From: Diadema setosum
Taxonomy: Eukaryota > Echinodermata > Echinoidea > Diadematoida > Diadematidae
Direction of reading: 5' to 3'
NCBI GenBank assembly: GCA_033980235.1
Contig: CM067064.1
Location: 31,895,170 to 31,959,169, forward strand
Length of the DNA: 64,000 nucleotides
In this document: piece after piece, positions 9,489-32,900 of the stretch
Layout of the letters: every line of letters begins with the position of its first letter
Numbering within the stretch: position 1 is the stretch's first letter
The notes under the pieces: model-generated
What the model was told of the DNA's origin: nothing
The model's database searches: none
What the model saw: the letters and a program-made list of their open reading frames with translations, nothing else
Position numbers and translations under genes: made by a program

Positions 9489-9560
9489 TCTGCAAAATCA
9501 ATATATTTTCTTTTTCTGGCCCTAAACTTTGGAATTCTCGCAATGGCAGTATATAGATGA
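9489..9560 (+). pseudogene. Short LINE ORF2 tail fragment
   Basis: One frame reads FSFSGPKLWNS and then degenerates with a stop shortly after. The GPKLWNS motif is the same C-terminal LINE signature seen at 2255-2392 and 6816-7030. Confidence 0.4.
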
Positions 9561-10249: not shown

Positions 10250-11310
10250 ATTTGTCAGACCCGGTAAAGTTTTAGTTTTGTGTTCTAGAAGGGTATTGAA
10301 GTAAATTTACGGTAGCTTGGTTGCTACCCAGGCAATCTTATTCAACTTTTCTTTATCAACCTAATTAGCATAATCATGTAATTAGCATGATATGTAAAAT
10401 AATATACAATATATTTGGTAATCATTATCCAGGACGCCAGAAAACATGGATAACTACAATTTTTCGATGGTTTTACATGACGAGGATTTCACTAACAAGA
10501 GTTTCCATTCTGAAATGATGAAAGTGTATTAAAGGGGGTTTACAGTACTGGTTGAGGTAGGGATTCATGTTTTGAACATTCCTAAGTGAGATAATGAAAA
10601 GCCTCTTATGAAATATGAAAGAGCATGTAATTTTAAGAAGGATTCAACGTTTATTTGATGAAAATTGGTTTTCAAATGGCTGAGATATCCAAAAAAGTGC
10701 TAATAATAAAAGGCGACATGCCCCAACTTTATTAGTATCTCTTTGTTTCACCTTGTTTTGGGATATCTCAGCCATTTCAAAACCGATTTTCATCGAATAA
10801 ACTTTTGATACCCCTTAGAACTGCATGATCTTTGAAATCTCATATAGTGGTTTCTGAATATCTCACAAAACGTTAAAAGCTAAATCTTCACCTCGACCAG
10901 AACTGTACACACTCTTTAAATATCATGATTAGCACACAGAACTAATTTGCATATGTACCACAATCTAGTAAATGCTACCATAATTATATTAATTATGTAT
11001 ATTCGTGTTCTAGATGGGTACGAAGCAGGCCCATATTATAGCTGGTTGCCACCTTGGCAATTTTCCGTGGGAAGTTATCTTTGTTGGTCTAATTAGCATA
11101 TTCTGCTTAGTAACGTATTATGTAATTTGTTGCTAGTTTAAATCCAGGAAGCATGAAAGCAGGGATAATACGACTTTTCGAGGTTTTTTTAAGACGAGAA
11201 ATTCATTTATAACATTTCTTCCAATTTAGAAATTATAAAAGTGTCTTGAATATCTTAGTTGGCATAATGAGCTAATTTGCATATGATAAATGTACAATAG
11301 GCTAGCCATG
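10250..11310. repeat. Two tandem units of an ATTAGCATA-rich interspersed repeat
   Basis: Two related units start at about 10275 (TGTGTTCTAGAAGGGTA) and 11010 (CGTGTTCTAGATGGGTA). Both pass through GGCAAT, CTAATTAGCATA and CTAATTTGCATATG. The first is interrupted by the 383-bp MITE at 10533-10915. A third, reverse copy lies at about 16240-17400. No open frame. Confidence 0.65.
10533..10915. mobile_element. TTAA-flanked MITE, family 1, copy 1
   Basis: The ends read AGGGGGTTTACAGTACTGG and, inverted, CCAGAACTGTACACACTCT. Both abut TTAA (10529-10532 and 10916-10919). The same family occurs at 33781-34074 and 46867-47339. Inside is an inverted pair GGCTGAGATATCC / GGATATCTCAGCC. TTAA flanks suggest a piggyBac-type transposase in trans, though TA plus TA fits equally well. 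Confidence 0.75.
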
Positions 11311-11620
11311 TCCTGAAACAGTTGTGTAGTACAATTTTGTTTTCTCACTCAAAGTGTAATTTCGTCATTGTGGATATCATTGATTTATCCGCTGCTTACT
11401 ATATGATCACGTATCTACAAATCATCGTAAATTCCGAAGAGAAATGTGTTGGCTCGCAAGCACTGATGCAGCTTACACTCAAATTTGTTTGAGTTTTAAG
11501 CCCCTATCATTTACACAATGACTACATGTATTTACATTATGCTTTCCTCTTCATGCGAGCTAAAGATAAAATGCACCAAACTCAACTCTGTCAAATTGGT
11601 ACAGTTAAACTATAATTTGC
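11311..11620. other. No gene; contains a short repeat shared with 27424-27480
   Basis: Around 11410-11485 the phrases TCTACAAATCATCG and AAGCACTGATGCAGCTTACA recur in the same order near 27424-27478. They mark an interspersed repeat of unknown class. Confidence 0.4.
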
Positions 11621-11841
11621 CCGTATCAGGGCAATTACCCCCAGCTAAATACTCGTTGGTGATAACGTTAGAGTAAATATTAGGGTTAGGGTTAGGTTTA
11701 TGGGGTTTAGAGTTTGGGTTATAGGCTTAGGAATAGGTTCAGGATTGATTCGGATTAGGATTAGGATTAGGATTAGGGTTAGGGTAAGGGGAAGCGTCCG
11801 GGGTAATTGCCCAGGGAGTAATTACCCAAGACCCCTCTCAC
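11621..11841 (+). repeat. Left arm with telomere-like TTAGGG units
   Basis: The arm contains TTAGGGTTAGGGTTAGG and a later run of TTAGGATTAGGATTAGG leading into TTAGGGTTAGGG. It matches the reverse complement of 12884-13071, so the telomere-like tract belongs to the transposon arm and is not a true telomere. Confidence 0.8.
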
Positions 11842-12012
11842 AATCAAGATTTTTTTTTTTCTCTCTGGCTATCAATGAAATATCAACTCTTGAATAGACA
11901 TCTTGACAAGCTCCTGGTTTGGAAACTTCCGGGGGGAAAAGGCATATATACATGTACAATGATAATACAGAAGCCAATAAATCAAATCAAATCAAATCAA
12001 ATCAATCAAAAT

Positions 12013-12250
12013 TTCCACAGTGCTCGAAGTCCTGGTCAAGGCAGATGAGGAGCGTGCGGGTGGTTCCTATGGGAAGCCCATCTGTCCAAGCATTGACCGC
12101 AGCTGTGAGATCGTCTGACGGATGTCCCAGTACCAAAGGCAAACATCCCCTTAAACTAAAACAGCGGAAATATAGAGCTCTTTAGTCACTGGTGACAGAC
12201 TATACTGGTTGTCACAAATCTCTGACATATACAGCCAGTGCAGTGGTTTG
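12013..12250 (-). pseudogene. INTS15: Captured fragment of INTS15 (exon 2 plus end of intron 1)
   Basis: On the minus strand this follows 30085-30320. It includes the intron end (GAGATTTGTGACA, CAGTGACTAA, TATATTTCCGCTG), the acceptor AG, and the exon start GGGATGTTTGCCT, then TCAATGCTTGGACAGATGGG and CGCACGCTCCTCATCTG. Because intron sequence is included, the copy was made from DNA, not from spliced mRNA. It is broken: relative to the gene it has two extra bases after the ATGGGCTTCCCA stretch, which shifts the frame and gives an immediate TAG, and it carries several substitutions (for example W to C in the LIWLDQ motif). It stops near AATTTCCACAG, before the end of exon 2. The fragment cannot encode protein but could produce antisense RNA to INTS15 if transcribed rightward. 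Confidence 0.88.
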
Positions 12251-12316
12251 ATTATGGCAGGGCCCTCTGGTAGAGCAGTGGCAACACTGACCAGTCTACC
12301 CTGCATAAAAAGACGT

Positions 12317-12396
12317 TGTTATTATTATTATCATTACTACTATTATTGTATTCATACTTATTATTGTTATCATTATTATTACTATCATTATTATTA

Positions 12397-12447
<51 letters not shown>

Positions 12448-12532
12448 AATTACTACTATTATTTTTATTATTATCTTTATTATTATTATCATCATCATTA
12501 TCATTATTATTATTTCAAGCATTTCTGTATAC
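12317..12532. repeat. ATT/ATC trinucleotide microsatellite
   Basis: A long ATTATTATT tract with interspersed ATC and ACT units. Long frames of Ile, Tyr or Leu here are artefacts. Confidence 0.95.
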
Positions 12533-12883
12533 TTACAATAATTTGTAAACTTATCCTTTATTGTGTATTATGATGAAATCTATGTATTCAATCTCTGTAA
12601 AATATTTATATGTTTCTGTTGGAAATGGAAAAATGAATGGATCATCTGAAATTAGAAATATTCCTCGCCGTATCTGAATGCTTGGAATGGCGGCATCGCG
12701 CAATACGCCTCCGTCTGACGCTTAATTGGATGACCATTTTGGATAACAACATATTTTTTATTAACATATAGGGAATCGACTGATCGTAAATAAATTTGAA
12801 CTTCAAACCTGCCGCGCAACGGCCAAAGCTCACCAAATGGAATGATCGCGATATCAATAAGACTGGCGAACTTAAGAAATTAA

Positions 12884-13071
12884 CTGTGAAACGGGTCTAG
12901 GGCAATTACCCCCTGGGCAATAACCCCGGACCCTTCCCCTGGCCCTAACCCTAATCCTAATCCTGAACCTGATCCTAACCCTAATATTTGCTCTAACCTT
13001 GCCACTAACCAGTATTTAGCTGGGGGTATAGTTGCCGGGGGGGGGGGGGGGGGGTAATTGCCCGGATACGG
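12884..13071 (-). repeat. Right arm with telomere-like units and a poly-G run
   Basis: This is the reverse complement of the left arm at 11621-11841, with CCCTAATCCTAATCC and a G run at about 13037-13054. It closes the element with CCCGGATACGG. Confidence 0.8.
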
Positions 13072-13113
13072 TGAAAAACTTATATCTAATCACTGCCACG
13101 TCATCAAAATGGT

Positions 13114-13362
13114 TACAGCTCGTTATTCCGAAGGTTCGTTATTCCGAAGGCTCTTTAGTCCAAAGATTCGTTATTCCGAAGGTTCATTATTCCGAATTTC
13201 ATTTTCGAATTAACGAATCTCCGGAATGACGAAACTTCGGAATAACGCTACAAATTCGGATTAACGAACCCTTTTTCATTTTCGAGTTAACGAACCTCTA
13301 TGTATGGGGAATCGGAATAACGAACCTTCGGTCTAGCGAACCTTCGGAATAGCGAACAGCAC
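13114..13362. mobile_element. Palindromic MITE built of TTATTCCGAAGGTTCG modules
   Basis: The left part repeats CGTTATTCCGAAGGTTCG in direct order and the right part carries the complement CGGAATAACGAACCTTCGG. This gives nested inverted repeats over about 250 bp. It abuts the right end of the Pack-type element. There is no coding capacity. Confidence 0.7.
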
Positions 13363-14094
13363 CCCATCAAAATCAAGGTTGTCTGTTGTTGTTGTTGTTG
13401 TTTTGGTTTTAATGGTGTGTATCACTCAAGATTGAGTATTTTTGGCCAACCAAGGCACGGCTTATATAGTGGTAGGCTCCTACAAGATGATACAAAAAAA
13501 AAAATCCACTTTTGATCCGTAATAGGTCAGAAACTGTATATCAGATAGCATTTACACTGATATGAGCAATACCTGAAAAGTGCACGATTTTGTTGGAGGT
13601 GATCTAACAATGAAGGCATTAATCAGTTTCATTAAATTCAAGATTTATCTTTAAGTTAGGGTTCAGATTTTGCTCCATTTTCAACTCTCTGTACAAAACT
13701 TTGACATTCCACAAGGACCAGTAGGTGTGTATGGGAGTGTGTGGTTAACACTCAGACAATAGTCCTGATTATGAACAATGGCCAGAATTTGAATGCTCTA
13801 TTACATATTCATGGGAAATTCCACTTTCACTGTCTTTATTCATCCAGAGATGTATGTGTATGCAGGAACATGAAAACATGTGCTTATTATTTTCATGTGC
13901 GTACATTTTACCCTTTACATGGATTCAGACTATCATTTCCAAGGGTATTCAATCATGAATTATTAGTAAAGCATTCATGTGCCTTGGAGCAAGAGACAAG
14001 AAGCCTGATCAGCAGAGGTATAAAAAAATGGTATTCGTGGTATTTATGTCTATTAATTGTTTAGGGTCATTGTAAGCACACACCCACATACAAG
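13363..14094. other. No gene seen
   Basis: GTT microsatellite near 13385-13402; otherwise low-complexity AT-rich sequence with a 107-codon frame (13741-14064) that lacks any recognisable motif. Confidence 0.4.
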
Positions 14095-14710
14095 CCATGT
14101 TCAGACGTATTTCTAGTCGGAGTAAAATTTTATGGCGCAGCAATTAAAATTCAAATATATAGTTATCTTACCACGACCCTGTGTCCACACGACGGTTGTA
14201 GGAAGAAACTCCGACCAATTTACCACGGCCTTCGCCGGGATCACCTTGGAGGGTCGGTGTAATTTCTGGAAGTGGTAGCGCCGCGCACGTCGACCATACG
14301 ATTGTTTGTTTTGTTTGTTTTTGTTTTTTTATTTGTTTTTTTCGTTAGCTTCTTCGTCCCAATCGACTAGGTCAGAATTGCACTACACGCGTACGTGTAC
14401 TCGCAAAATGTCAACATTGCGATTTGCTCCCGGAAGTTTTACCTAGGTTGTAAATGTAAGGTAATGTAAGTTCAGAGATACTCCGAGGGCTTGTCCGCAC
14501 GGGCAATTTACCCCGACCGGCCATTCGTGGTAGCGAGATACTCCTGAGAAAACTTAGGAGTATCTTGGTCGGAGGAAGGGGTCGTGGCTCCGACCGGAGG
14601 AACTTACCACGACATTGTTCAGACGGGCACTACTCCGACCTTTCCTCCGAAGTTACTCCGACCCTTCCTCCGAAGTTATTCCGACCAAAACTGCCCTCGT
14701 CTGAACACAG
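14095..14710. mobile_element. MITE with TGTTCAGACG ends
   Basis: The left end reads CCATGTTCAGACG and the right end CGTCTGAACACAG. Inside, GTCGGAGTAA / TTACTCCGACC modules are repeated in both orientations (for example CTCCGAAGTTACTCCGACC near 14645-14665), so nested stem structures are likely. No open frame. Confidence 0.7.
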
Positions 14711-15023
14711 CTATTGAGGGTTCCAATTTGACCAAAATTTTGGATGTAACTTTAAAATCAATCATGGATTTAATGAAACTGATTCAGACTTTCATATTCA
14801 AATCACCTCCACATAAATTGCACTCAGCTAGTCCCTATGTATATCAATGACAGTGTTATCTGATACAATAATTTTCGAACTATTAAGGATCAAAAGTGGG
14901 AAATGTTTTTTGTAACACCAAGTATTCGTGTTTGTTGGAGATGAAATAACTTGGACATGAAGTTGAAAGTACTAATGGCAAAAAACATACAAACAAAGAA
15001 ACAATGAAAACGAAAACAACCCC

Positions 15024-15065
<42 letters not shown>

Positions 15066-16026
15066 ACAATAAAATGAATGTCAGACTTATCATTCAACAC
15101 GTGATATCCCAGTCTACTCATGACAGCATACTAATCCAAAGAATTAACCTTATTATTTTTAACGGGGGTTGGTGTATATAAAGCACATTGAATATGTCAA
15201 CTCTAAAATGATAGTGAAATTTATTGTTCTTTTGGATGCAAAAATGATTTATCTCGAGCAACACATTATACAGACTGCTCAAGACAAAAGGCCGATTTGA
15301 AGGTATAGAACATTATCTTAAATGGCTGAAATGCACGCGCGGACTTAGGTTGATGTATTATAAATTTCCTCTTCTATACGGTGTCTACATCGTCATAATA
15401 ATAGTTTGTTGTGTACACAGAAGTATAATATCGAGATTATTCACTATAATTTTGTTATTTTTATTATCTAGACGGACTATATTTCCATTCCAAAATGAAT
15501 CACAAGCAGTAATGTCATACATTGACATGATTGAGAGTTGAATTAAACGGCAGAAGCTCTGAGGCAGGACCATGATTTGTTTTGTATCCAAATACCACTA
15601 GAAAGGAAGCAGGCCCCCCCCCCCCTTTTTTTTTAGCAGATAACAAACTAAGCGATAAGAGGGAGTTATTGGAATAATCTGAGATCAGTAAATGACACGG
15701 TTGGACGATGCCAAACAAACAAGGAAACGAGCAACATCAAAAAAAAAAAAAAAAAAAAAATGCCGTGACATTGGTCTCCACTCATGTATGAAAGTATTCG
15801 ATATTGATGCTGGGAGTTGACAATAAAAAAAGCAACAACAACAATAACCACTTAACAGACAAACAAACACAAGCAAACAAACCAGAACCACGTGTAATGA
15901 CAAAATACCGTGATGTTTTGTGATAAGACATCATAGGGGATCACAAACAATATCTTAGCTGGTAGATGAAATCCGTGATAACACAACAACAACAATAACT
16001 CACACCTACCCACCCACACACGCACA

Positions 16027-16078
<52 letters not shown>

Positions 16079-16240
16079 GAATAATAATTGTGGGGCACCA
16101 TCTACTGTTTTATTCTATAGACCAAGCTGGAGAATTATCGAGAGTTACCATTGATTTACACTAAGGATGTGTTTTTCAAGTTAGCAAGAAATGTATTGTG
16201 ATATAATTATTTCCACTTATTGAGTTGTATCACCCATGTT
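14711..16240. other. No gene; microsatellite-bearing sequence
   Basis: Holds CA tracts at 15027-15067 and 16012-16077, a C run plus T run near 15617-15634, and a poly(A) run near 15739-15760. No gene, element end or RNA gene could be supported. Confidence 0.5.
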
Positions 16241-16482
16241 TTCAGTATTCCTTGACCGAAACTACATATAAATATAATATTATTACATATACAATGCATA
16301 CTAATCAGCTGAATATGCTAATTAACTAATAGAGATAGGCCCTAATCGCCCAAGCTTGCCATAAGGGAACAATCAATGAAATTATTTCAGTAGGCCTACC
16401 CATCTAGAACACGAATCAACAACAACAACGACGACGACGACAACAACAACAACAACAACAATAACAACAAAACCTTCTCCTA

Positions 16483-16564
16483 AATCCGTTCCATACGGGA
16501 ACCTTGTGGGCTGTGTATTAAGTCAATGGGGCGGATTTCAGAATTCGGTATGGAATGGGTTAAC
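16483..16564. mobile_element. Small palindromic element, about 82 bp
   Basis: AAATCCGTTCCATACGG at the left pairs with CGGTATGGAATGGGTT at the right, with about 45 bp between. A short MITE is likely. Confidence 0.45.
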
Positions 16565-16746
16565 AGCTTTTTCACGTTTTGAACATACTAGTAGATGGCA
16601 TCATTTACTAGACTATTGTACATACTAGTATGCAAATCAGCTCATTTTGCTAATTATCATAATTATCTGAGTTACTTGCGTCATTGCAAAATGGAAAGTC
16701 GTTATGATTGATTCCTCTTCATAGAACCCCCTCGAAAAGTTGTATG

Positions 16747-17309
16747 AAAGGACAAGTTCACCTTCATTAACATAAGGATTGAGAGAATGTAACAATATTA
16801 GTAGAACACATCAGTGAAAGTTTGAGGAAAATCGGACAATCCGTTCAAAAGTTATGAATTTTTGAAGTTTTTGTGCAGTCACCGCTGGATGAGAAGACTA
16901 CTGCAGTGTATGATGTCATATGAGTACAACGATATAAGGAAAATATAAAGAGAATTTCACAAAATTTCATCTTTTGAAAAAAGTACACATTCCCTTGACT
17001 CGTTACTGACATATGTTATGGGTAATATTATTCCCATTGCCTTTAGAAAGAGGCAAGTCAAGTACTCTTTTATTATGCGAAAAAAGTGAAAATATGTTGA
17101 ATTTTCTTTACATTTTCTTTATACTGTCGTACTCATATGACATCACGAGCCTTAGTAGTCTCCTCATTCAGCGGTTCCAACATAAAAATTTTTAAAATTC
17201 ACAACTTTTGCATCGATTGTCCAATTTTCCTCAAACTTTCACTGATGTGTTCTACTAATATTGCTGCATTCTCTCAATCCTTATGTTTATGAAGGTGAAC
17301 TTGTCCTTT
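16747..17309. mobile_element. Palindromic MITE, AAAGGACAAG family, copy 1
   Basis: The ends AAAGGACAAGTTCACCTTCA and TGAAGGTGAACTTGTCCTTT are perfect inverted repeats. The arms stay complementary for over 200 bp (AATATTAGTAGAACACATCAGTGAAAG against its complement). Related copies are at 21362-21856 and 45668-46187. Confidence 0.85.
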
Positions 17310-17400
17310 AAAAATATTTTCTGTCTTTATGGATTACGATTAGTGAATTTATTACATAAGTTACATATCATGCTAATTACACGATTATGCTAATATATTA

Positions 17401-17689
17401 GCCAAATTAAAAACAAACAAACAAACAAACGCCACAGTGGGAACCAAGTCATGGCCGGCAACACGTTTTCGTTGCGTGTGTGTGGGGGGGGGGGGGGCAC
17501 TTCAGTAGCTAAGAAGCAAAAAAAAACAACAAAGAAACAAAGAAAAAATATTTCTCCTTCCACTTCCGGGTTTCTTCTGTAAGTTTCTTCTCCTTAAATA
17601 CTCAATTTAGAACACGTCGTTTATAGCAACTGAAAACAAAAATTAAAGTACCGTACCCGACTAAATCGACGACGAGCTTTCAGGGCCAG
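17401..17689. other. Low-complexity sequence upstream of a promoter-like region
   Basis: Contains AAAC repeats and a G run (17484-17497); composition becomes more balanced toward 17650, where the stranded INTS15 5' region begins. Confidence 0.4.
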
Positions 17690-17736
17690 GGCCGAGGGCG
17701 CCATCTTCAGCTAGTTCATCTCGTTTGATCGGAAAC
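17660..17736 (+). promoter_or_regulatory. INTS15: Stranded INTS15 core promoter / 5' leader (candidate)
   Basis: A GC-rich stretch, GGGCCAGGGCCGAGG, is followed by GCGCCATCTT at 17698-17707, a good match to the YY1 motif often found at TATA-less housekeeping promoters just downstream of the start site. An ATG in good context follows 30 bases later. Sequence continuity with the true gene is broken by the 8-kb foldback element starting at 17757. Function is inferred, not shown. Confidence 0.5.
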
Positions 17737-17756
17737 ATGGCAGCTTACATGGAGGA
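17737..17756 (+). pseudogene. INTS15: 5' remnant of INTS15 coding exon 1
   Basis: ATGGCAGCTTACATGGAGGA encodes MAAYMEE up to the left end of the foldback element. The last eight bases, ATGGAGGA, are repeated at 25813-25820 directly after the element, where they continue into the intact remainder of exon 1. The first ATG has A at -3 and G at +4. Reading on into the element gives a frame that stops at 17803-17805, so on an uninterrupted transcript this would now be a 22-codon upstream ORF. The alternative, that this is an unrelated sequence matching by chance, is unlikely because the repeat sits exactly at both element ends. Confidence 0.75.
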
Positions 17757-18341
17757 ACTGCCCGTTAGCGATCGACGGAGTGCCATCCTCTCATTGGTCC
17801 GTTAGGGACGTGCGGAAGCACGAAAACAGTGCGATCCCGTACGTAGAATCCCCGGCGAATTACCAATAATTGCAACCGTACAATTTTAAAGGATCTAAAA
17901 CAGAATTCTAAGCAAATCAAACCTGGTTTTGGATCAGATACCAAGTACAAATATATCAATACAGCACTTAAAGTAGCGGTCCGAATGATATTATACCACA
18001 AGTTCACTGCCTCTAGCTCACGTTACTGTTGGATCGGCATATACGGCAAGTACGTGTGCTGCATAAACGAACGTACGTACGTACGTGCGAGCGGATCTAC
18101 TCATTAGACTTGACACAACAGTCGTTTCATTAGTGTACCGAAATAGAGAGTTTCGTTATGCTCCCAGTCTCTCACTCTCGGAGCCGACAGAGACATCTAG
18201 CAATCACATTAGGTCTATATGTCAGACGAACTGTATGAATAAAATCAATCAAACAAACTTCAAAGTAAGGCAAATAGACTTTGAGAGATATTGTAAGAAT
18301 TATGTGATTATAGGTCAACAGTCATGCCGGTCATCAGGGCC
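17757..18341 (+). repeat. Foldback outer domain, left arm
   Basis: Unique sequence matching the reverse complement of 25206-25812. It contains a CCTCTCATTGGTCCG block (inverted CCAAT) and ACGTACGTACGTAC near 18071-18085. The short frames in it are mirrored in the right arm with one change each and are not thought to be genes. Confidence 0.9.
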
Positions 18342-20350
18342 TACTGGATATCATATATGGCAACATGCCAGTCAGTCCTACTGAATATCAATATGGCAAC
18401 ATGCACCAGTTATCACCCCTACTGAATATCATATTGCAACGTGACGGTCAGTCTGACTGATACCATATGGAAACATGCCGGTCAGTCCTACTGAATATAT
18501 CATATATGCAACATGCCGGTCAGTCCTACTGAATATATCATATATGGCAACATGCCGGTCAGTCCTACTGAATATATCATATATGGCAACATGCCGGTCA
18601 CTCCTACTGAATATATCATGTATGGCAACATGCTGGTCAGTTCTACTGAATATATCATGTATGGCAACATGCCGGTCAGTCCTACTGAAGATATCATATG
18701 GCAACATGCCGGTCAGTCCTACTGAATATATAATTATGGCAACTTCTGGTCAGTTCTATATGGCAAAATGCCGGTCAGTCCTACTGAATATCATATGGCA
18801 ACATGCCGGTCAGTCCTACTGAATATATCATATGGCAACATGCCGGTCACTCCTACTGAATATGGCAACATGTCGGTCACTCCTACTGCATATCATATGG
18901 CAACATGCCGGTCACTCCTACTGAATATATCATGTATGGCAACATGCCGGTCAGTCTTACTGAATATACCATGTATGCATGGCAACATGCCGGTCAGTCC
19001 TACTGAATATATCATATATGGCAACATGCCGGTCAGTCCTACTGAATATATCATATATGGCAACATGCCGGTCAGTTCTATATGGTAACATGCCGGTCAG
19101 TCCTATACTGAATATATCATTATGGCAACATGCCGGTCACTCCTACTGAATATATCATGTATGGCAATATGCTGGTCAGTTCTACTGAATATATCATGTA
19201 TGGCAACATGCCGGTCACTCCTACTGAATATTTCATATATGGCAACATGCCGGTCAGTTCTATATGGTAACATGCCGGTCAGTCCTATACTGAATATATC
19301 ATTATGGCAACATGCCGGTCACTCCTACTGCATATCATATGGCAACATTCCGGTCACTCCTACTGGATATATCATGTATGGCAACATGCCGGTCAGTCTT
19401 ACTGAATATACCATGTATGCATGGCAACATGCCGGTCAGTCCTACTGAATATATCATATATGGCAACATGCCGGTCAGTTCTATATGGTAACATTTCCGG
19501 TCAGTCCTATACTGAATATATCATTATGGCAACATGCCGGTCACTCCTACTGAATATATCATGTATGGCAACATGCTGGTCAGTTCTACTGAATATATCA
19601 TGTATGGCAACATGCCGGTCACTCCTACTGAATATGGCAACATGTCGGTCACTCCTACTGCATATCATATGGCAACATGCCGGTCACTCCTACTGAATAT
19701 ATCATGTATGGCAACATGCCGGTCAGTCTTACTGAATATACCATGTATGCATGGCAACATGCCGGTCAGTCCTACTGAATATATCATATATGACAACATG
19801 CCGGTCAGTCCTACTGAATATATCATATATGGCAACATGCCGGTCAGTTCTATACGGTAACATGCCGGTCAGTCCTATACTGAATATATCATATGGCAAC
19901 ATGCCGGTCAGTCCTACTGAATATCATATGGCAACATGCCACTCAGTCCTACTGAATATCATATGGCAACATGATGCCGGTAAGTCTTACTGAATATACC
20001 ATGTATGGCAACATGCCGGTAAGTCTTACTGAATATATCATTTATGGCAACATGCTGGTCAGTTCTACTGAATATATCATGTATGGCAAAATGCCGGTCA
20101 CTCCTACTGAATATTTCATGTATGGCAACATGCCGGTCACTCCTACTGAATATCATATGGCAACATGCCGGTCAGTCCTACTAATATATGGCAACATGCC
20201 GGTCAGTCCTACTAATATATGGCAACATGCCGGTCACTCCTACTGAATATCATATGACAACATGCTGGTCAGTCCTACTGAATTTCATATTGCAATGTGC
20301 CGGTCAGTCCGACTGATATCACATGGCAACATGCTGGTCAGCCCTACTGA
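18342..20350 (+). repeat. 39-bp tandem array, left arm
   Basis: The unit is GGCAACATGCCGGTCAGTCC followed by TACTGAATATATCATATAT. Variants lack internal ATATATC pieces or carry CACTCC for CAGTCC or CTGGTCAGTTC. Blocks of variant units recur in the same order (for example CAGTTCTATATGGTAACATG near 19074, 19257 and 19477), showing higher-order amplification. The array is about 0.7 kb longer than in the right arm. Confidence 0.95.
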
Positions 20351-21361
20351 ACATATATGTATCTGAAATATCTGTATCTATTTATCTATTAAACCTACTG
20401 AATATATCACAGGCACACTCTTACGATAATACGATTGCATAATGACCTCATCATTGCCTGTTGCACCTTTAGATGCAATGAATGAACATTTTTCCTGCCC
20501 TTCATATTGCTGCTTCCACTGGATGAACGCTAGGTGAGGTAAAGAAACAACAGTAATAAATGTAATACATATGCATAATGTCACATAATGTACTTACACT
20601 GGCTAAACGCAATGGCTTTACCTTTTCTTACATTGTATATTACTGCATAATTATGGTATGTTCCACATAGTATTTCAATAGAAAACCACATTTGGAAAAG
20701 AAATCAGTGTGTTGACATTTTGCACTCACTAACAGTGCAAGTACTTGAAACGTGAACTTGCTTCCAACTGCCAGCCCAGATGACATCTATTCAACAAACG
20801 AAATGGAGAAACGAAATAGTAGTTGAGTTAATCCTATCAAACATACAATGTAGACAAGAAGACAACAAAAATCAAATCAATCTTCATTTGATAGATAACA
20901 TGGTAACTGAGTAACATAACAGATGAATGGATGAATGGATAAAGAACAAATTGATGTACAAATCGTAATGTGGCTATTAAAAACAGCTTTTAACTATCCA
21001 TAATGGATAAATCAAGCTACTTGCCAAATCTTACTTAAATCAATGATTTGTAGTACAATATACATCAGAGAAAAGCTTGACATTTCCTCGAAATCTTTGC
21101 TCGTTACATGTCCAGGGTAACAAAAATCTACAAAAGTTACATCGGTTTGAAACCAGAACGTTTTCTCAAAGCATGGCTGCCTTGCTACGTCAGAATAATG
21201 TGGAACACAGGAGGTATACACCATGGCACATAAAGAGTTAAAGGATTACTTAATCAGCATTACATCACTTATGGCTTTGCTCAGTATGGCTCAAAAAAAT
21301 TAAAACATATCTATTTACCTTCTCTGGATTCAAACGTGAGCTGAATCTCCTCCATGGATAA
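20351..21361. other. Foldback loop, left part; no gene
   Basis: Non-repetitive AT-rich sequence with no frame longer than about 70 codons and no transposase motif. Confidence 0.5.
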
Positions 21362-21856
21362 CTTTGGGCTACATGTCTATGGCAATAATGCTGGAGAATG
21401 CAGCAATATTAGTAGAACAGATCAGTGAAAGTTTGAGGAAAATCGGACAATCCGTTCGGAAGTTATGAATATTTTTAAGCATCTGAGCAGTCACTGCAGG
21501 ATGAAAAGACTGCTAAAGTGTATGATGTAGCCTGCATACAGCGATATATAATGAAAACAAAAAGAGAATTTCACAAAATTTAATTTTGAATAAAGTGATA
21601 TAAATTTTTATTTCTTTTTTTAAATTTGTTTAGACCATTTCAGTTCTTCATATATCGAAACACCTAAACATTTGGTGAACTGAACTATTCTAATCAGACT
21701 ACCATTCAAGAATTCACTTAGTTGTTGATGTTTGTAATTTTATTCATGGTTGATAAGATTGAACTGTTCAACTTTCCTCAAAATCACACCGACGTCTTCT
21801 ACTAATATTGCTGCATTCACTCGACCCACATGTCTATGAAGGTGAACTTGTCCTTA
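21362..21856. mobile_element. Palindromic MITE, AAAGGACAAG family, copy 2 (in loop)
   Basis: Shares GCAGCAATATTAGTAGAACA, GTTTGAGGAAAATCGGACAA and the right end TGAAGGTGAACTTGTCCTT with 16747-17309. The left terminus is decayed. Confidence 0.75.
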
Positions 21857-23342
21857 AAAAGCAGTCCTCCAGCTTCATTCTGTACACTCATCAAAGAAAT
21901 ACTTGATATGTACATGGAGAGATGTTTCAATGTAAAAAGAGAGAATTGCAGGACTACACATTTCAAAGATATTCCTAATTCTCCTGAATATCCATGTGCT
22001 CCAATTTTTGTCGGTGTGCGAGGTGTACCATAGCCATGAGGTTAATTCAGGCTTAAACTTAGTTTCAGCAAAAAGAACAATTTTGAATGAAATGCAAATG
22101 TACGCAAGAAACATTACATGTAGGACAATGAAAGAATACCAAATTGAAAACATGTAGCTGCATGTGGTTGTCAAACATTATTTGACCAGCAGTACTTTTA
22201 GACACTTAATTGGTACATTGTAAGTCTGATAGCTGTGTATTGCTTCATCCCTATTATATGAGACAACATCGAAACCTTCCTCCAAGAAAGAGAACCCTCC
22301 TCATAACTATGAAGGGCTTTGTCTACATGTGGGACTGTATGGGACACCTAACTGAGCTAAGTTACAGACACTAAGTACTGACAGCTGTATATTGCCTCAT
22401 CAACAACATTGAAACCTTGCTCCAAGAAAGAGAGCCCTCCTCAACTCCAAACAAAAGATTCCACAGTCAAAAACTTTTATCCACTTAATCCCCACAATGT
22501 ACAGAGCTGATTACATTCAGGGTGGCCACTCAAGCCAAAACAAAGCATTCCCCAGCCTGTGTGCATGAAACCTTTCCTGGCTACTATACAAAGAAGCTGA
22601 CATATTGTAAAGAGGTATTTAATTCTCCTATGGTGCTCACATTATCCTATCAAAACCACAGACTTCACCTGTGACTAAAATACACACCATCACTTACAGT
22701 GTCATGACTTTGTTGTCATGGTGCAGTACTGCAGTCCATGTTTTTAGCGGAAGCCAGTGACGACCAGAATGTCAGGATTTTTGTAGGGCTTCTGTGGAAA
22801 TGAAGTGTTCAAAACACAATTGAGAATGAAAAGATATGACTATAGTTGTTGCAGTTGATGCATGTGCATCATGACTAGAGTGCATTGTATTCATTGAAAC
22901 GTCCTGGGAACACCCACTGGCACATCCGCCACTGGGTGTGAAATGCTCAAGGGCCATTGTCCAAAAAAGTGTGCACTCATCTAGTTGTACAAATGACTAA
23001 AAACTCTAAATCAAAGATTTCATTCAACATTTAGCAATTATACGAATCAGAAACTTTAACAAATTCAGAAACAAATGTACAACAATCAATGGGTGATTTT
23101 TTTTTTAATAGTAATAGTTTTCTCCAGAAACGTTACCAAACTCTTAGTAATAAGTCATTTTAAACGTGTCAAATCCAAATGTCAGATACGTTACCACAGG
23201 TAGCATCTCAGAAAATTGTTTGATAGTTGTTTTTCACTTTCAACTGGGACAATTCTTGGAGTCAGCCTTCATCTAATCTGTAAAAAAAAATAATATTATG
23301 ATTTGTAAGATGAAGGCTAAATAAAAGTCAAGCTGAAGAACA

Positions 23343-23397
<55 letters not shown>

Positions 23398-23944
23398 TTT
23401 GGCTTAAAACATTTTTGTACTGATTATATGAACGGTAGACAATTTACTTGTGATAATTATGTAAGATGCATAATAATAGTGAACAAAAGTAGTGGTTTCA
23501 TTAGCTGGGAAATTGTGAGGGTTATAGGAAACTTCAGGTTGTTTCCAATATCCTGGGCATCCAAATAAAGCATAATTGCTAGGCCCTATATATTGAACAG
23601 GTCCAACCTCTCAGATTTAAACTAAACTAAAATGATGATTTGTAATTGACAAAATATCAATTTCAGCTGTATGAACATGCTGGCACAGTTGTTGGGAGAG
23701 TAGTACCCATGGCATTGTTTTTGTTTGTTTTTTTCTGATGAATAATGCAGAAAGCCAAAAAAAAAAAAAACACATGTGAATCCCAAATATGAATGTACAT
23801 TACTGTCTACAGCACAAATTACAGTCTAACTTTTGACACAAGTATTTGCAAAGATATTATCAAGTCCCTGCATGCCATGCCACCAAGTGATTGCACTGTG
23901 TAAGCCTTGTTGGCAGTTATATTTTGTTCATTGTGAGTGGATTC
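21857..23944. other. Foldback loop, right part; no gene
   Basis: Contains a local duplication about 150 bp apart (TGCTTCATC...CCAAGAAAGAGAACCCTCCTC near 22240-22300 against TGCCTCATC...CCAAGAAAGAGAGCCCTCCTC near 22393-22442) and an AT microsatellite at 23346-23390. No coding sequence recognised. Confidence 0.5.
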
Positions 23945-25205
23945 GTGGGGGGGCCGGCATGTTGCCATATGATATGCAGTAGGAGTGACCGGCATGTTGC
24001 CATATGATATTCAGTTGGAGTGACCGGCATGTTGCCATTTTATATTCAGTAGGACTGACCGGCATGTTGCCATATGATATTAGTTGGAGTGACCGGCATG
24101 TTGCCATATTATATTCAGTAGGACTGACCGGCATGTTGCCATATGATATTCAGAAGGAGTGACCGGCATGTTGCCATAATGATATATTCAGTGTAGGACT
24201 GACCGGCATGTTACCATATAGAACTGACCGGCATGTTGCCATATATGAAATATTCAGTAGGAGTGACCGGCATGTTGCCATGCATGATATATTCAGTAGA
24301 ACTGACCAGCATATTGCCACACATGATATATTCAGTAGGAGTGACCGGCATGTTGCCATAATGATATATTCAGTATAGGACTGACCGGCATGTTACCATA
24401 TAGAACTGACCGGCATGTTGCCATATATGATATATTCAGTAGGACTGACCGGCATGTTGCCATATATGATATATTCAGTAGGACTGACCGGCATGTTGCC
24501 ATGCATACATGGTATATTCAGTAAGACTGACCGGCATGTTGCCATACATGATATATTCAGTAGGAGTGACCGGCATGTTGCCATATGATATGCAGTAGGA
24601 GTGACCGACATGTTGCCATATTCAGTAGGAGTGACCGGCATGTTGCCATATGATATATTCAGTAGGACTGACCGGCATGTTGCCATATGATATTCAGTAG
24701 GGCTGACCGGCATTTTGCCATTTGATATCTTCAGTAGGACTGACCGGCATGTTGCCATACATGATATATTCAGTAGGACTGACCGGCATGTTGCCATACA
24801 TGATATATTCAGTAGAACTGACCAGAAGTTGCCATAATTATATATTCAGTAGGACTGACCGGCATGTTGCCATTTGATATCTTCAGTAGGACTGACCGGC
24901 ATGTTGCCATACATGATATATTCAGTAGAACTGACCAGCATGTTGCCATACATGATATATTCAGTAGGAGTGACCGGCATGTTGCCATATATGATATATT
25001 CAGTAGGACTGACCGGCATGTTGCCATATATGATATATTCAGTAGGACTGACCGGCATGTTGCATATATGATATATTCAGTAGGACTGACCGGCATGTTT
25101 CCATATGGTATCAGTCAGACTGACCGTCACGTTGCAATATGATATTCAGTAGGGGTGATAACTGGTGCATGTTGCCATATTGATATTCAGTAGGACTGAC
25201 TGGCA
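23945..25205 (-). repeat. 39-bp tandem array, right arm
   Basis: Inverted counterpart of 18342-20350, reading GACCGGCATGTTGCCATA with ATATATTCAGTAGGACT in between on this strand. Several variant blocks match the left array in mirrored order, which supports a common origin followed by unequal change. Confidence 0.95.
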
Positions 25206-25812
25206 TGTTGCCATATATGATATCCAGTAGGCCCTGATGACCGGCATAACTGTTGACCTATAATCACATAATTCTTACAATATCTCTCAAAGTCTATTTG
25301 CCTTACTTTGAAGTTTGTTTGATTGATTTTATTCATACAGTTCGTCTGACATATAGACCTAATGTGATTGCTAGATGTCTCTGTCGGCTCCGAGAGTGAG
25401 AGACTGGGAGCATAACGAAACTCTCTATTTCGGTACACTAATGAAACGACTGTTGTGTCAAGTCTAATGAGTAGATCCGCTCGCACGTACGTACGTACGT
25501 TCGTTTATGCAGCACACGTACTTGCCGTATGCCGATCCAACAGTAACGTGAGCTAGAGGCAGTGAACTTGTGGTATAATATCATTCGGACCGCTACTTTA
25601 AGTGCTGTATTGATATATTTGTACTTGGTATCTGATCCAAAACCAGGTTTGATTTGCTTAGAATTCTGTTTTGGATCCTTTAAAATTGTACGGTTGCAAT
25701 TATTGGTAATTCGCCGGGGATTCTACGTACGGGATCGCACTGTTTTCGTGCTTCCGCACGTCCCTAACGGACCAATGAGAGGATGGCACTCCGTCGATCG
25801 CTAACGGACAGT
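25206..25812 (-). repeat. Foldback outer domain, right arm; possible new INTS15 5' leader
   Basis: Reverse complement of 17757-18341 with a two-base indel near 25529 and about three substitutions. It ends one base before the INTS15 ATG. It carries CGGACCAATGAGAGG (a CCAAT box, about 25766-25780) some 35 bases upstream of that ATG, so it could supply a replacement promoter or leader; that is inference only. Confidence 0.8.
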
Positions 25813-25843
25813 ATGGAGGAGCAGAGTGGGATATTGAGTGCAG
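25813..25843 (+). CDS. INTS15: INTS15 exon 1 (3' part)
   Basis: Encodes MEEQSGILSA plus the first base of a glycine codon, followed by the donor GTAAAC. The first eight bases are the right copy of the duplication made by the foldback insertion. The phase fits exon 2 exactly. The vertebrate N-terminus is shorter here, so this exon is supported by splice phase and position rather than by similarity. Confidence 0.7.
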
Positions 25844-28800
25844 GTAAACTTCACTTTCTGACAGTGATATCAGGATTGATTTTACTTCCAGAGTTTTAAT
25901 TTGATAATTTTGCTTAAATTTCCTTGTATCTTGCTGACTGAACAGTCTTAGAAATGCTGTAATGTAGTTGCGCGGTGCATTAATTTATTATAATGGGTCA
26001 TGGGGGAAAGATCTCGGTCTGTGCAGTAGTCCCACACGTATCAAATAATGTAGGCCTATGGGTAAATTTTCGGTAATCATGTAGAAATGCACACCTACCG
26101 TTCGCTTAGCCGTTTGTCAATAAAATTTTGTGCAGCTCTTGGAGATGCTAAATTGAACCATATAAGAGAGTTTTTATTGAATTAGAAAGCCGAAAAGGAA
26201 AGAAAAATGAGAAATCGGAGTTGAAAAGTACGTCGGTCGCGATCATAGTTCCGACGTAGTAACTAGTGCATCGATTTCACAGAGAACTATGTCAACGATT
26301 ATAATCGATTCTGGTAGTCTCTAATTAGCCGCTTACTAACAATATTAACACGACTTGTGCAATACGTGTGGGCCCTAGTCTAGATCTACTTTCATTTTCG
26401 TATTTTTCTCATTCTTTTCATTGCCACTATCATGATTATCACTATTTAAATTATTGATACAGATTATTCATACAAGGATTTAGATGTCCTTTCTTTAGAA
26501 ATTGTGGCAAGTATTGATTCATGACAAAAGTTGATGATTTAATTTGAATAGAAGGGAAAAGAATGAAGTTGAAGGAAAAGTAGAAGAAAAGAGGAAGGCT
26601 GTTAGAAGGAGGGAGAGAGAGAAAGAGAGAGAAAAGAACATGAGGAGGAAGTTGAATTCGAAGGGGATTTGTTGTTTGTTTCTGGTGATGGTAAATGGTA
26701 TTAAATTCATGTTTTTAATTGATAAGTTCAATTTACAGTATAAATCATTGTTTTTATGATAACGCTATTCATTTTTCCATTTCATTTTATTAATTATGTA
26801 TACAAGAACTGCAACCCCAATATTTGCTTTTGTTTCGTAGTAAGGTCCTTTTTATTATCTTTTATTGTTTCACACATATTATCCTCCCATCATTCAGTCA
26901 GCAAAATATGTTGACAGATACAATGTTTGTATACAGTCAAACGCAGCACGCAGGAGAAAATTTATTAAAACAACAAAAAACAGACGCATCGAGATCACTT
27001 CAACTTTTTACTGTAAGCCGACGTAATTATTGTGGTTAAACACCAAACAAGCGGCTGTACCACAGACTTCAACGATCGATCATCATCATTATATCGCTTT
27101 TCCACATAATCGATCATCAATCACGCTACGCTGATACAGCCGTCGATCGGCGTACTTTTTGAGTCAAAATTAGCTAATTTTCTTCTGTAATTGGCTATGA
27201 AATTTCATGAAACCATCAGATATGGTTCATCTTGACATTTCTGATAGCCACGAAAAGTTTTATTGACAAATTAAGGAAGGAAATGGTAGGTGTGCATGGT
27301 GTGCATTTCTACACGATTACCAAATTTTCTGTTTGTTGAATAGGCCTACACCCGATAGAAATTAGAATGTCTACCAATAAATTTACTTCTCGATCTACAT
27401 CTAAGTTATTGAGGGAGAAGTTTCTACAAATCATCGGAGGAGACAAGTGTTACTTCTCAAGCACTGATGCAGCTTACACCCTAACTAAATCTAATTTTAG
27501 TAAATTAATGAGTTTAAAAGATTAAGCAGCTACCATTTTTGTTGACCGAAGGCGAAAGATTGGTCTGTATCTGGTCGTCGGGGAATGTTCCGCGGAGACT
27601 GTGTCTGGCTTCACGGATCCCCTCCTTATACAGACCGAAGTCAATGATTCTGGCTCCTGTGTGGATGCGCTGCCAGCGGTCGCGCACAGATCAAACGTTA
27701 CGATAAACCAAATTTCAGACAACTTTTTTACATTCAAACAAGTTTGACATGACATGCACTATGCAGCATATTTGGGGTAAATTTCTCATTGTGCAATCGA
27801 AATGCAGTAACTAGGTTATAATGCAGAAATTTTATCCATATCGCAACATTGCCGTTCGCTAGCAGTAAGTCGCCATTTTTAATCTGTTAGCCAATCACGT
27901 GCGTGGTACGTGTTTTAATAAAAAAAACACGTAGAAACTACCTTGCATGTGATTGGCTAATGGATTCATATGTTTCTGCAGTTTGAACGTGACGCCGCAA
28001 TGGGCTGGTTGATGTGTGTTTTACATTGAAAATTCTACCAAAATGTTTGATTATTCATTAATCTGGTGAGTGTAGTGCATTCTTGAAATGTTGATTTTGC
28101 TATACAAGCTTAAATTTGCCGACCTAGGGCCGTGAATTAGACGCAATCGAGAAGGGTGAGGTACCTCACCCAATTTTTCCATAGAGACAGGGGTTAAGAA
28201 CATCCACACAGTGATGGGTACTAACAACTTCCGTCTGTCTACGGAGGAGAGCGATAATGTCAAAAATACAAAAGACTCCTCCGGCCAGACAGATCTTTCT
28301 GTCTACCATTTTTGCATCACCAGCACCCAGCAGAGACCCCAACACATGTAGAAATCTACTGGTAGTACTGCCTTAGTTAGTACTGGTTAATACAGCAGCG
28401 CCCCGCGCCGGGGTTACAATATCACCATTATTGGTAACTACATTGTACTACGATTGCAATGTCATATTGATGCAAATTTCGCAATAAATAAGGAAATTAT
28501 TGCAATGATTATTGTCGAGTGCACACAAAAGTACTGGTAATGAGTACCAGTTCAAGACTAGCCTTTTGTCAAGGCCCTCTCGCTGTAATGGGCGAGCGAA
28601 GCGAGCCCAGCCGAGCGCGCCAGCGCGAGGGCCTTTTGAGATCTGCTTCACACATTATTATTCATGACACGTGAACCCTTCTGAATACTCATTTTAATGG
28701 CTTCCGGTCAACCAATGGAATGGCGCGCTCCCCGCATCCTCAGCCTTGGTGGTCATGCCTGTTCGCACGCATCACTGACGTATCCACCCGAGGAGGTCTG

Positions 28801-29949
28801 CCACGGAACTCTACACACACTCTGTGTGTAGAATTCTGTGAGAGTGTGTAGAGTTCTGTGAGGTCTGCGGCAGCGGCGTGCATTCGCTCTATTCAAATCG
28901 GGTTCGAGCAGACAGACACGCTGATTGGACCCCGACTTTTGCTCCCGAAATCGGGGAGCAAAAGTCGGTAATTCAAAGGGCTAACAAAAGGATGCGAAGC
29001 AGATCTCAAAAGGCCCTCGCGCAACCCCACTCAGCTGGGCTCTCTTCACCATACAGCGAGAGGGCCTTGACAAAAGGCTAGTTCAAGACTGACTTGCCAC
29101 TTATCACATGCATACACCCGTCTGCATGGTTGAGGTGAACATTCTGCTGAAATAGAATGTAGCCAGCAAATGTAATGAATATATTCGCCATCAGAATGTG
29201 CTTGCTTTGGTTACGTTTACTATTGGCCAGACACATGCCCTTTAGAAACTCAATTTTTCATGGAACTTCTCATCAAACACAAGTACTGTAGGCCCATCAT
29301 CAGAATCAAATGCAAAATTGCATTTGATTCATCAAAGTTGTACTTCATATTTCATATGAAACCAAATTAACCAATGCTCTCTGTAATGAACTTGCGTTTA
29401 GCATAAGATTTGGGGGACTTGCATTTTATTTTTTTTTAGTTTCTAGCAGTGGGGCCCAGGAGTGTTAGATGCCAGCTTTCAGTCAGAGTGGCTGGCTAAC
29501 TTTAGCAGATGATATGTGTTCTAGGGGTATGCACATTCCTTTTAGGAGCAGCGAGTGAGTGGCGAATCAGTAACTATGCGATTTCTGTAGGCATCCGACA
29601 ATATTTATGCCAATAATTTCAGAGTCAATAATGATTATTGAATTATGGTTCACAATGGCATCATGGAAAATGTGTGCCATTTCTGTGCTAAATTTAAGAA
29701 TCTGTGTGGACCACATCTGCTGATGTTCAAGGTGTTGTATTTAAAACAAATAGCGTATGATCTTTACTCGTGCAAAGGAACAAGATTTCGCACCCATTTG
29801 AAATCTTGTACCAACCCAGTTTTGATCATTCACTATTTACACTAGTTTTTCTGTTAGGATTTCAACCCCTTCTCAGTAATTCTCCAACTGTGTAGGCCTA
29901 AAGAGGAAATAGTAGATGATCATTTACAATTATTTATTTATATATATTT

Positions 29950-29980
<31 letters not shown>

Positions 29981-32900
29981 GCGTTTTCCATCACTCAGAC
30001 TTCTTGTGTTAATGTGTAATAGTTGGATTCATGTAAACGGAAATGATGTATTCCGTTTGATATGTTTTTTTTTTTTTCAGGTAATATAATCATACCATTG
30101 CATTGCATGTCGGAGATTTGTGACACCTATCGTCTCTGATCAGTGACTAATCTGAACCGTATATTTCTGCTGTTCTAAGGGGATGTTTGCCTCTGGTACT
30201 CGGACATCGGTCAGAGGATCCCACAGCTGCGGTCAATGCTTGGACAGATGGGCTTCCCAGGAGCCACCCGCACGCTCCTCATCTGGCTTGACCAGTACTT
30301 CGAACAATGTGAGAATTTCCCCCCGGGAAAGTTCCCGAACCAGGAGTATGTCAAGATGCTCATTCAGGAGTTCATCTTTTACAGATCGGCAGAGAAGAAT
30401 CTAATGGTAAGAGACAGGCGAGTATGCCATTATAGTCCCATTAGGCTTTGGCACATTTGACCATTGCTGATTTGAAGAGGAAGATATTGCACACAGTCAT
30501 CATGTATGAAGGATTTTGTCTAAATTTATAGTTATAGTATTGTATTGGTTCAATGTAGTTGCTATCTTTTTTTTCCTGATGTGATTTTCCTTGTATCATT
30601 CACTGCTGTTTATCATGGATAGAGTAACATCGTTCAAAGTCCTATGTACCAGTGAAAGGATTATGTTACATTTCATAACTCTGTAAAGCAGTCAGAAATA
30701 GAAAACAAAATGTACATGTTCCTTTAAGTTTACCCACAAATTACCAATATAAAAAGGTACTATCTGGCTTTAGATTCAGATTATTGTATCACATACACTT
30801 TGAACACACACATTTTCATAAATTTCAGGGCAAGCAAGTGTGTTGACAAATGTCAGTCATACGCAAACAGTCTTGCAAAAAAAGAAGAAGAAAAATCCTG
30901 TGATTAAAGTAAGCTGTGATATCTCGTTGTGCCAATTATGCAGCAAATGACTGCAGTGCAGGAGTTGCAGCTGTTGGAGGAGTTGTGCCATTTCTTCCAC
31001 GAGAACGGCAAGCTCGCCACCACCCACAACGTCTTCGACGCCCTCTTCGGCAACAGCGGGCACCCGCTGAAGGATGCGGATGAGCAGCGGCGCAAGGCAA
31101 TGATGCGACTCATTTCCCTGGCGATCAGCGTCGGATGCCACGATGTGTTGGATTGTGCAGCCGTGTGGCTTTATAATCAGGTATTTATCAGGATGTTAAG
31201 TCAGATAAGCAGAATGGTAAAAGTTGCATCAAAATCAGGCTTTAAAAGAGACTAACAGAATTTCCATTTTCACACAATGATGTTTGTCATTGACATTGAC
31301 AGTATATGCACATAAGATAATGTGACGTTTCCATTATCTCTCAGCTCTTGCATTTATTTGTGCACACTCAAAAAAAGTGTACAAATCATGTCTTTGGACA
31401 GCAATCTAGCAATTACAGTGTCTTCTAAGTCTTCATTTATTGGACATTGCAGCACAAGAAACAATTTCATGGGACAAATTAAATATTTACTTTTCAACTT
31501 CCTGTCAAGAAGGAAAATTTAGTGGAGACGTTTGTGTAGAGCAATGTGAGGACTTGTATCTTTTCGAGTTCATGAAATTGCCTCATTTATGTGCTAACTA
31601 CTGTGTATGACTGCACATAAAACACTTTTGTGCCAAGACATGAAACTTTGAAATTCCTCAACTTTTAGGTTGAATCTGACAATTTTGATGAAAATCCTTC
31701 CATTCTGTTTGATTCAAGCCAACTTGAACACCGCATGGAATTGCACATTGAATCTCTGTATGTTTAAGTGTCGAAGAAGGTAACACAATTTGATTAGTTT
31801 CTTTCTCTCTCTCTCTTCTTAATCAGACAGCTATTTTTTCTCTGCTAATTCATGTGTTGTTGGATATTTCATTTTCATTATGCTCACAACTGTAAAGTAA
31901 CCATTTTCAAAATGTATTACATTTAGAATCAAAAGATGAATAAGATGCTAGGCTCAGAAGTCAAGAAAGGCCAAGGTGCAGTTTTTTTTTTTCTCCAGTT
32001 CGGAAATGACCGTGGAAAAAAAATATTGAGGGCAGATTTTGCCCCCTCCTCCTTCAGTCTTTACTGAAAAAAGAAGACTTGAATCAGAAATGAAAAAAAA
32101 AAATCTGAAAAACGTAAGAGAGTATGAAAATGAGAAATATGAACAAAGATGTAAGATTATGGAGGTACATAAATCTTTCTTTCTACCTCCATGGTAAGAT
32201 CAATAGGGCACATCCTAGAATAGTGAAAGATTGGAAATGCTTCATGGAACTAACTGTCTTGGTATAGATGTGAAAAGGATTCAATTTTTTTTTTCCCTGC
32301 GCTGTGTAACCCTATGATGACGCTCTTGTGAACTGCTCCCTTAGGACTGCTCTGGCCACAGCATCAGCCTCGCTGACTCCGTGATGACCGACTTCTGTGA
32401 GCTGGTGCCAGGCACTCAGCCTGCCATCCAGTCTGTCGCCAAGATGTCCCCCCAGTTCACCTACCACCTACTCACCGCTCTCATGTCTCACTTCAACACT
32501 TACCAGAGTAAGGAACAATTGATGGTGAAACAAAGTTTATCAGGATTCAAAAATCATTTCCACCATTTTAGAATTAGCAATACATACAGTGTACAGTAAA
32601 CCTCGCATGAGTCGAAGCTCTCGGGACTGAAAAAAATGCGTCGACTTAAGTGAACTTGGACTCTCGCGAGAGTCGATTTTTTTTCGACTCACAGTTATGT
32701 ACATGTATATAGTACATTTGCATGCATGCATGTGTGTGTGTGTGTGTGTGTGTGTGCGTGCGTGCGTGTGTGTGTTTGCATTCAAATTTGTCTGTTCTTG
32801 AAGATAATGTTCTTATTTTGTTCTAAATTGAACATGGAATTTGTATGTAGTAGTTAAACGTAGTTCTGAGAATGTCTGCTCCCAATGTGCATGTGCTATG

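Follow-up and report, generated by a model that had tools for sequence, protein, structure and literature searches.

A low-copy foldback family of the sea urchin Diadema setosum that appears to select a YY1/TISU-like start-codon motif at a fixed 12-nt offset

The stretch of Diadema setosum DNA analyzed here (64,000 nucleotides, C6:31895170-31959169, referred to below as the window) contains the INTS15 gene, the first coding exon of which is split by a foldback element of 8,056 bp (17757-25812). Elements with the same ends occupy three further places in the genome, and in all four copies the first base of the target duplication falls exactly 12 nt past the A of the ATG within a motif, AANATGGC[A/G]G, which occurs in a single orientation and points at the element. 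This target rule is very probably real. It is also likely that the copies form a low-copy, non-autonomous foldback family, site-selective for a start-codon/core-promoter motif, and that the terminal repeat of these elements offers a start to the gene they enter.

The interruption of INTS15 can be read from both sides of the element. The inverted termini, ACTGCCCGTTAGCG at 17757 (+) and ACTGTCCGTTAGCG at 25812 (-), and an exact 8-bp repeat outside both, ATGGAGGA at 17749-17756 and 25813-25820, had been described in a preliminary, sequence-only reading and were borne out. The 5' piece of the exon (17737-17756, +) encodes MAAY, ME and a partial codon, and reads MAAYMEELPVSDRRSAILSLVR* into the left arm, while the 3' piece (25813-25843, +) encodes MEEQSGILSAG and ends at a GT donor at 25844. 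When the flanks are joined at one copy of the repeat, exon 1 is restored as ATGGCAGCTTACATGGAGGAGCAGAGTGGGATATTGAGTGCAG, and the frame, continued into exon 2 from 30180, runs on as GDVCLWYSDIGQR. The remaining exons, the boundaries of which are approximate, are found at ~30180-30405, 30944-31180, 32345-32507, 35606-36163 and 37881-37961 (30180-37961 overall, +). The protein built from the exons of the window finds seven relatives, namely those of D. antillarum, Lytechinus pictus, Strongylocentrotus purpuratus, three sea stars and a crinoid. The INTS15-like protein of D. antillarum (100% query coverage, 96% identity) derives from an unbroken exon reading MAAYIEEQSGILSAGDVCLWYSDIGQR, and the N-termini of the orthologues are MAAYIEEQSGILSAG in D. 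antillarum, MDAYMED in S. purpuratus and MNMNMDAYMEA in L. pictus. Since exon 1 is unbroken in the orthologues, it must be considered ancestral and the insertion in the window derived. The earlier proposals that a transposon interrupted INTS15 within its first coding exon, and that joining the flanks gives back a continuous ancestral exon, are thus supported by the duplications and by the D. antillarum exon, which matches the joined one. A second copy of the exon 1 flank was not found, as positions 1-247 of the flank query match the home locus only (40 of 153 candidates scored); the other matches among these scored candidates cover positions 248-438, which belong to a dispersed repeat.

The extent of the family was defined by the element ends. 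A search of the 885.7-Mb assembly for the terminal 28 nt, with <=3 mismatches allowed, gave 8 matches (reversed control, 0), and all 8 candidates retrieved with a 124-bp end query are these same ends. They delimit four elements, those of C6 (INTS15; 8,056 bp), C21 (7,963 bp), C4 (7,629 bp) and C15 (22,498 bp), the last being so long because ~12.9 kb sits inside its right array. This insert (~8,248-21,185 of 22,498; L010-L012) lies between identical 247-bp array stretches and is rich in other tandem repeats. A direct duplication flanks each of the four copies: ATGGAGGA, AAACTTGC, TTTTGTCAT and AATAATAT. Three of them are 8 bp long; TTTTGTCAT, the duplication of the copy lying in SETD6, has 9 bp, or else 8 bp and a slip of one base in a run of A.

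The target rule became apparent once the four sites were oriented alike and brought into register at the first base of the duplication rather than at the element junction. Flank and duplication then read gaaacatggcagcttac ATGGAGGA; atcaaaatggcggtggta GCAAGTTT; aaaaagatggcagcgccc ATATTATT; and atcaatatggcggcgccc ATGACAAAA. The invariant columns are -15A, -14A, -12A, -11T, -10G, -9G, -8C and -6G, so that the best 10-column window holds 8 of them, and there is one further, isolated invariant column at +27. Random site quadruples, drawn from the fetched DNA with all 8 relative orientations tried, gave a maximum of 5 invariant columns both in 6,000 and in 60,000 draws, with 0/60,000 reaching six. 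In the window, the motif (GAAACATGGCAG, 17733-17744, +) overlaps the native INTS15 start codon at 17737, and the left copy of the duplication begins 12 nt downstream from the A of this codon. The motif corresponds to the YY1 consensus, AAnATGGCG (PMC3680475), which is fully matched at C4 and C21, and with one mismatch (ATGGCA for ATGGCG) at C6 and C15. It also overlaps the TISU element, for which the consensus SAASATGGCGGC has been given (PMC6347283), although all 12 positions of the latter are matched at 0/4 sites. TISU binds YY1 and, close to transcription starts, occurs in one direction only; a TISU ATG at which coding does not begin is either in another frame or soon followed by a stop codon (PMC2518114). 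This description fits all four sites, the motif ATG being the coding start at C6 and C4.

The C4 site provides a second case of a split start. The element there divides exon 1 of SETD6 at codon 5, as in INTS15, and the identity of the gene is given by seven collinear tblastn matches on the motif strand. The first exon, MAAPMTKRQRDDREEN..., ends at a GT donor, and the joined junction reads MAAPMTKRQRDD. The intact exon is known from protein alone: P0008 of D. setosum starts MAAPMTKRQRDDREEN, with the junction as MAAPMTKRQRDD, and SETD6 of L. pictus and S. purpuratus starts MAAPM. The sequence from which P0008 derives (48,786,125 bp) is absent from the 22 pseudochromosomes of the present assembly, and therefore another D. 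setosum assembly encodes the SETD6 exon unbroken, which indirectly supports the notion that this insertion is polymorphic in the species. The introns of SETD6 also contain a 1,175-residue reverse-transcriptase-like open reading frame (ORF) at L028:5867-9391 (+) and retrotransposon-like ORFs of 612 and 335 residues at L030:59-2856 (+), all recognized by eye. At the C15 site, the first coding exon of CIAO1 (MDGKLDQVAELSGHQERVWCVSWNP) begins ~190 bp past the duplication, with the motif in the CIAO1 sense, and the opposite flank carries ANAPC10 (PF03256, 3.9e-57) in a head-to-head arrangement.

A further regularity concerns the ends themselves. Read outward, each of them ends in ...GACCAATGAGAGG ATG GCA CTC CGT CGA TCG CTA ACG G(A/G)C AGT, followed by the duplication. 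In 8/8 ends the outward ATG at -30 begins an open frame 0 and has a strong context (A at -3, G at +4); a weaker one at -38 lies in another frame, which is closed by a stop before the end is reached. Because the duplication begins at codon 5 of a start-codon target, a fusion starting from the ATG of the terminal inverted repeat (TIR) is in frame by construction. In the right end of the INTS15 copy the resulting ORF, MALRRSLTDS (25783-25812, +, with the ATG at 25783), is in frame with INTS15, the computed fusion being MALRRSLTDS-MEEQSGILSAG-GDVC..., and the SETD6 fusion, MALRRSLTGS-MTKRQRDD (MALRRSLTGSMTKRQRDD), is one uninterrupted ORF in L028. The right copy of the duplication carries an in-frame ATG of its own with A at -3, as had been claimed from the letters, and a transcript starting upstream of 25783 within the arm would meet the ATG at 25783 first. 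From the native INTS15 start, translation stops after 22 codons, and the sense strand of the element contains 298 ATGs and five AATAAA; consequently, any INTS15 protein made from the inserted allele should start at 25783 or 25813. Splicing-out of the element was considered and set aside, no plausible acceptor being seen by eye at its right end. When the last 60 nt were shuffled 20,000 times, an open in-frame ATG arose in strong context in 2.2% and in any context in 15.7%. The last 143 bp of the right arm have a GC content of 0.50 and an observed/expected CpG ratio of 1.59, compared with 0.35 and 0.32 in the middle region, and outward ATGs are absent from 25532-25774, the inward strand being equally ATG-poor. 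At 25770-25779 (+), directed toward INTS15, lies GACCAATGAG, which we take to be an NF-Y-type CCAAT box.

These observations can be integrated in a model in which the motif AANATGGC[A/G]G would be recognized directly or via a bound host factor, and the cut would be placed so that the duplication begins 12 nt 3' of the A of the motif ATG. With a true start codon as the target, the insertion would fall at codon 5, in phase, and the downstream terminal repeat could then supply an in-frame ATG, adding MALRRSLT[D/G]S to the host protein, as well as promoter-like sequence rich in CpG and provided with a CCAAT box. We infer that the motif directs insertion and is read by YY1 or by the transposase, that transcripts begin within the arm, and that the fused protein is translated from them. 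The rescue of the gene by the terminal repeat is the boldest and least supported step of the model. In its full form, the proposal describes a start-codon-seeking, host-sparing transposon, which would home to YY1/TISU starts and always split them after codon 4 in phase. Its own terminal repeat would stand in for the lost promoter and start, and the essential housekeeping genes INTS15, SETD6 and CIAO1 would thereby stay expressed with a MALRRSLT[D/G]S N-terminus; this full form is doubtful and is put forward only tentatively.

Several points weigh against the model. There are only four insertions, every one non-autonomous, and a transposase was not found among the 10 ORFs of the INTS15 element that were scanned. 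If the sites are aligned on the element junction, that of SETD6 falls one base out. At C15 and C21 coding does not begin at the motif ATG, and the frame opened by it stops after 10 and 14 codons, respectively. The flanks of the C21 copy (5 + 10 ORFs) gave only sub-threshold Pfam matches, the best being BRWD1_N (E 0.0027, 18.4 vs 27 bits), and no gene. The TIR ATG was spotted after the fact, some in-frame open ATG being present in the 15.7% of shuffles already mentioned, and Tyr4 of INTS15 (in MAAY), which would be lost in the fusion, is invariant in 8 aligned rows. Finally, as host start codons carry the motif themselves, the place at which it is read is not inferable from sequence.

Regarding the reader of the motif, YY1 may act as a tether, in the manner of Sap1 for Tf1 (PMC5741268), or the transposase itself may do the reading. 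The latter option, with the transposase recognizing ATGGC both in the arms and in the target and YY1 being uninvolved, is possible but falls somewhat short of probable. ATGGCA is indeed present in the array units (ATGGCAAC) and near every end (ATGGCACT), but these sites fit by eye 7/9 of the specified target positions, which is estimated to be near chance for such a unit. Array or end were also considered as YY1 sites, and with 7/9 positions they were unconvincing. As for the origin of the rule, the sequence-only reading implied an essentially random insertion into an exon, with an ATG duplicated by chance. The duplicated ATG, made a start by the duplication, is merely that of Met5, which is Ile in D. 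antillarum; nevertheless, an offset of 12 nt fixed in 4/4 copies and a second start-codon strike in SETD6 render this view very improbable. Survivorship, in which insertion is wide and only the copies at motifs are kept, or a preference for open promoters rich in YY1 motifs, would account for three of the four sites being at the 5' ends of conserved genes, but it predicts neither an offset exact to the single nucleotide nor one orientation, and it is considered quite unlikely. A false join, arising where inverted arms outlast many reads, had to be contemplated because the mean HiFi read of 8,449 bp (PMC11066563) is close to the length of the element; with all four elements showing matching duplications at both ends and cleanly joining gene flanks, such an artefact is extremely improbable.

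In an alternative to rescue, the insertion would simply break INTS15 (and SETD6) on one haplotype, another haplotype or individual would supply the protein, and the in-frame ATGs would be unused. We give this nearly an even chance. The 22-residue dead end at the native start speaks for it, together with the many ATGs and the five AATAAA on the sense strand, the intact SETD6 of the other D. setosum assembly, and a heterozygosity of 2.11% in an assembly that was purged of haplotypic duplicates (PMC11066563). On the opposite side stands the downstream arm, CpG-rich, with its CCAAT box and its ATG-free interval, although the inward strand shares this ATG poverty.

The INTS15 copy has long inverted arms with tandem repeats flanking a middle region, that is, the build of a foldback element. 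Each arm consists of ~600 bp of unique sequence followed by an array, around a middle of ~3.5 kb. On the left, the outer non-array part (17757-18356, +) carries the terminal ACTGCCCGTTAGCG and leads into an array (18357-20360, +) of mostly 35-39-bp units around ATGGCAACATGCCGGTCAGTCCTACTGAATAT; on the right, an inverted copy of the array (23950-25215, -) is followed by the outer part (25215-25812, -) with the terminal ACTGTCCGTTAGCG. The arrays gave 48 + 31 unit matches (<=7 mismatches of 32), and ACTGYCCGTTAGCG is carried at the element ends. The middle region (20400-23900) is 94-99% identical to those of the other three elements; its segment at 21394-21595 (995-1198 of the middle used as query) is a genome-dispersed repeat of 87-89% identity. 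No transposase domain was found by Pfam in 10 shorter ORFs of the INTS15 element (8 in the middle, 2 at the arm end), which gave two matches far below the cut-off, and none of the stop-to-stop ORFs of >=110 residues listed for all four elements looked transposase-like; Pfam scanning was confined to the INTS15 element and did not extend to the long ORFs that C4 has in its middle and C15 in its insert. No autonomous partner appeared, since the 28-nt pattern (<=3 mismatches) and the 124-bp query from the end both recovered only the same 8 ends.

The comparison of arms does not serve to date the insertion. Over the first 1,000 bp, only 4 substitutions and one 2-bp indel separate the two arms of the INTS15 element, and this near-identity had been taken as a sign of youth. 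However, within the outer 600 bp the two arms of one element differ by 3, 2, 2 and 1 substitutions, those of different elements by 3 to 9, and across the 8 arms 10 substitution columns and 4 indels are common to both arms of an element, whereas 4 and 1 are not. As most variants are shared in this way, the arms must have been homogenized within each element and their identity is no clock, so the inference of youth fails and dating by arm divergence was rejected. Exchange between long arms has also been argued for Galileo (PMC3573991). Column 5 was set aside from this count because left ends have C and right ends T as their fifth base in 4/4 elements, despite the homogenization of the other variants. 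With these end marks as reference, the C6 element carries its middle in the opposite direction to the remaining copies. The end faced by the motif differs as well, being ACTGC in C6 and ACTGT in the three others; the direction of the middle relative to the motif is therefore the same in 4/4, which with only four copies could be chance (1 in 8). Intact duplications and an intact SETD6 elsewhere argue for recent activity of the family, without dating the INTS15 copy.

Duplications of 8 bp are also made by hAT and P elements. The TU foldback elements of S. purpuratus, attributed to Lieberman et al. in 1983, reportedly have long inverted arms and 8-bp duplications, and they resemble the D. setosum element in this and in their sea urchin host. 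Promoter targeting to the single nucleotide is achieved by the retrotransposon Tf1 through Sap1, a DNA-binding protein of its host. Tf1 insertions lie in promoters at positions fixed to the nucleotide, -9 and +19, next to the motif of this protein; however, Tf1 is a long terminal repeat retrotransposon with an integrase, whereas the D. setosum element is of cut-and-paste type, inserts on one side only and has the motif at the start codon (PMC5741268). The TISU/YY1 element shares motif, orientation and start-codon overlap with the target, but it is known as an element of host transcription and translation and is not known as a target of transposons (PMC2518114, PMC6347283). In the lancelet ProtoRAG, YY1 binds the ends and regulates transcription and transposition, TR5 (GCCATCTTG) being a YY1-type site; this is again YY1 acting on a deuterostome transposon, but at the ends rather than at targets and with 5-bp duplications, and target selection is not reported in the relevant passages (PMC7481187). 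Mutator-like elements (MULEs) have long terminal repeats with promoters and transposase sites and duplications of similar length, albeit of 9-11 bp versus 8-9 in the present family, and a MULE transposase was not found in the 10 scanned ORFs (PMC3310237). A close description is that of Tetris of Drosophila virilis, with three structurally complete copies, long inverted arms made of an outer flank and tandem arrays, a non-coding middle, 8-9-bp duplications and an autonomous copy that was not found; a start-codon/YY1 target and an outward in-frame ATG are not described in the relevant passages, and the likeness is one of structural description (PMC4079207).

A literature search, covering top-ranked titles and the openings of abstracts, yielded no DNA transposon targeted to a YY1/start-codon motif. 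A TIR-type element aimed at a YY1/TISU start-codon motif with an exact offset would be a new targeting rule. Such a rule would explain how the element survives in the promoters of essential genes, and it predicts both new insertion places and the proteins made there, which makes the D. setosum element a test case for transposons repairing what they break.

Elsewhere in the window, for which an Rfam scan gave no match, intron 1 of INTS15 holds two more repeats. That at 26060-26250 is dispersed, being 94-99% identical to dozens of places, and that at 28558-29081 is a second, unrelated inverted-repeat element with ends CTAGCCTTTTGTCAAGGCCCTCTCGCTGTA and TTCAAGA on both sides.

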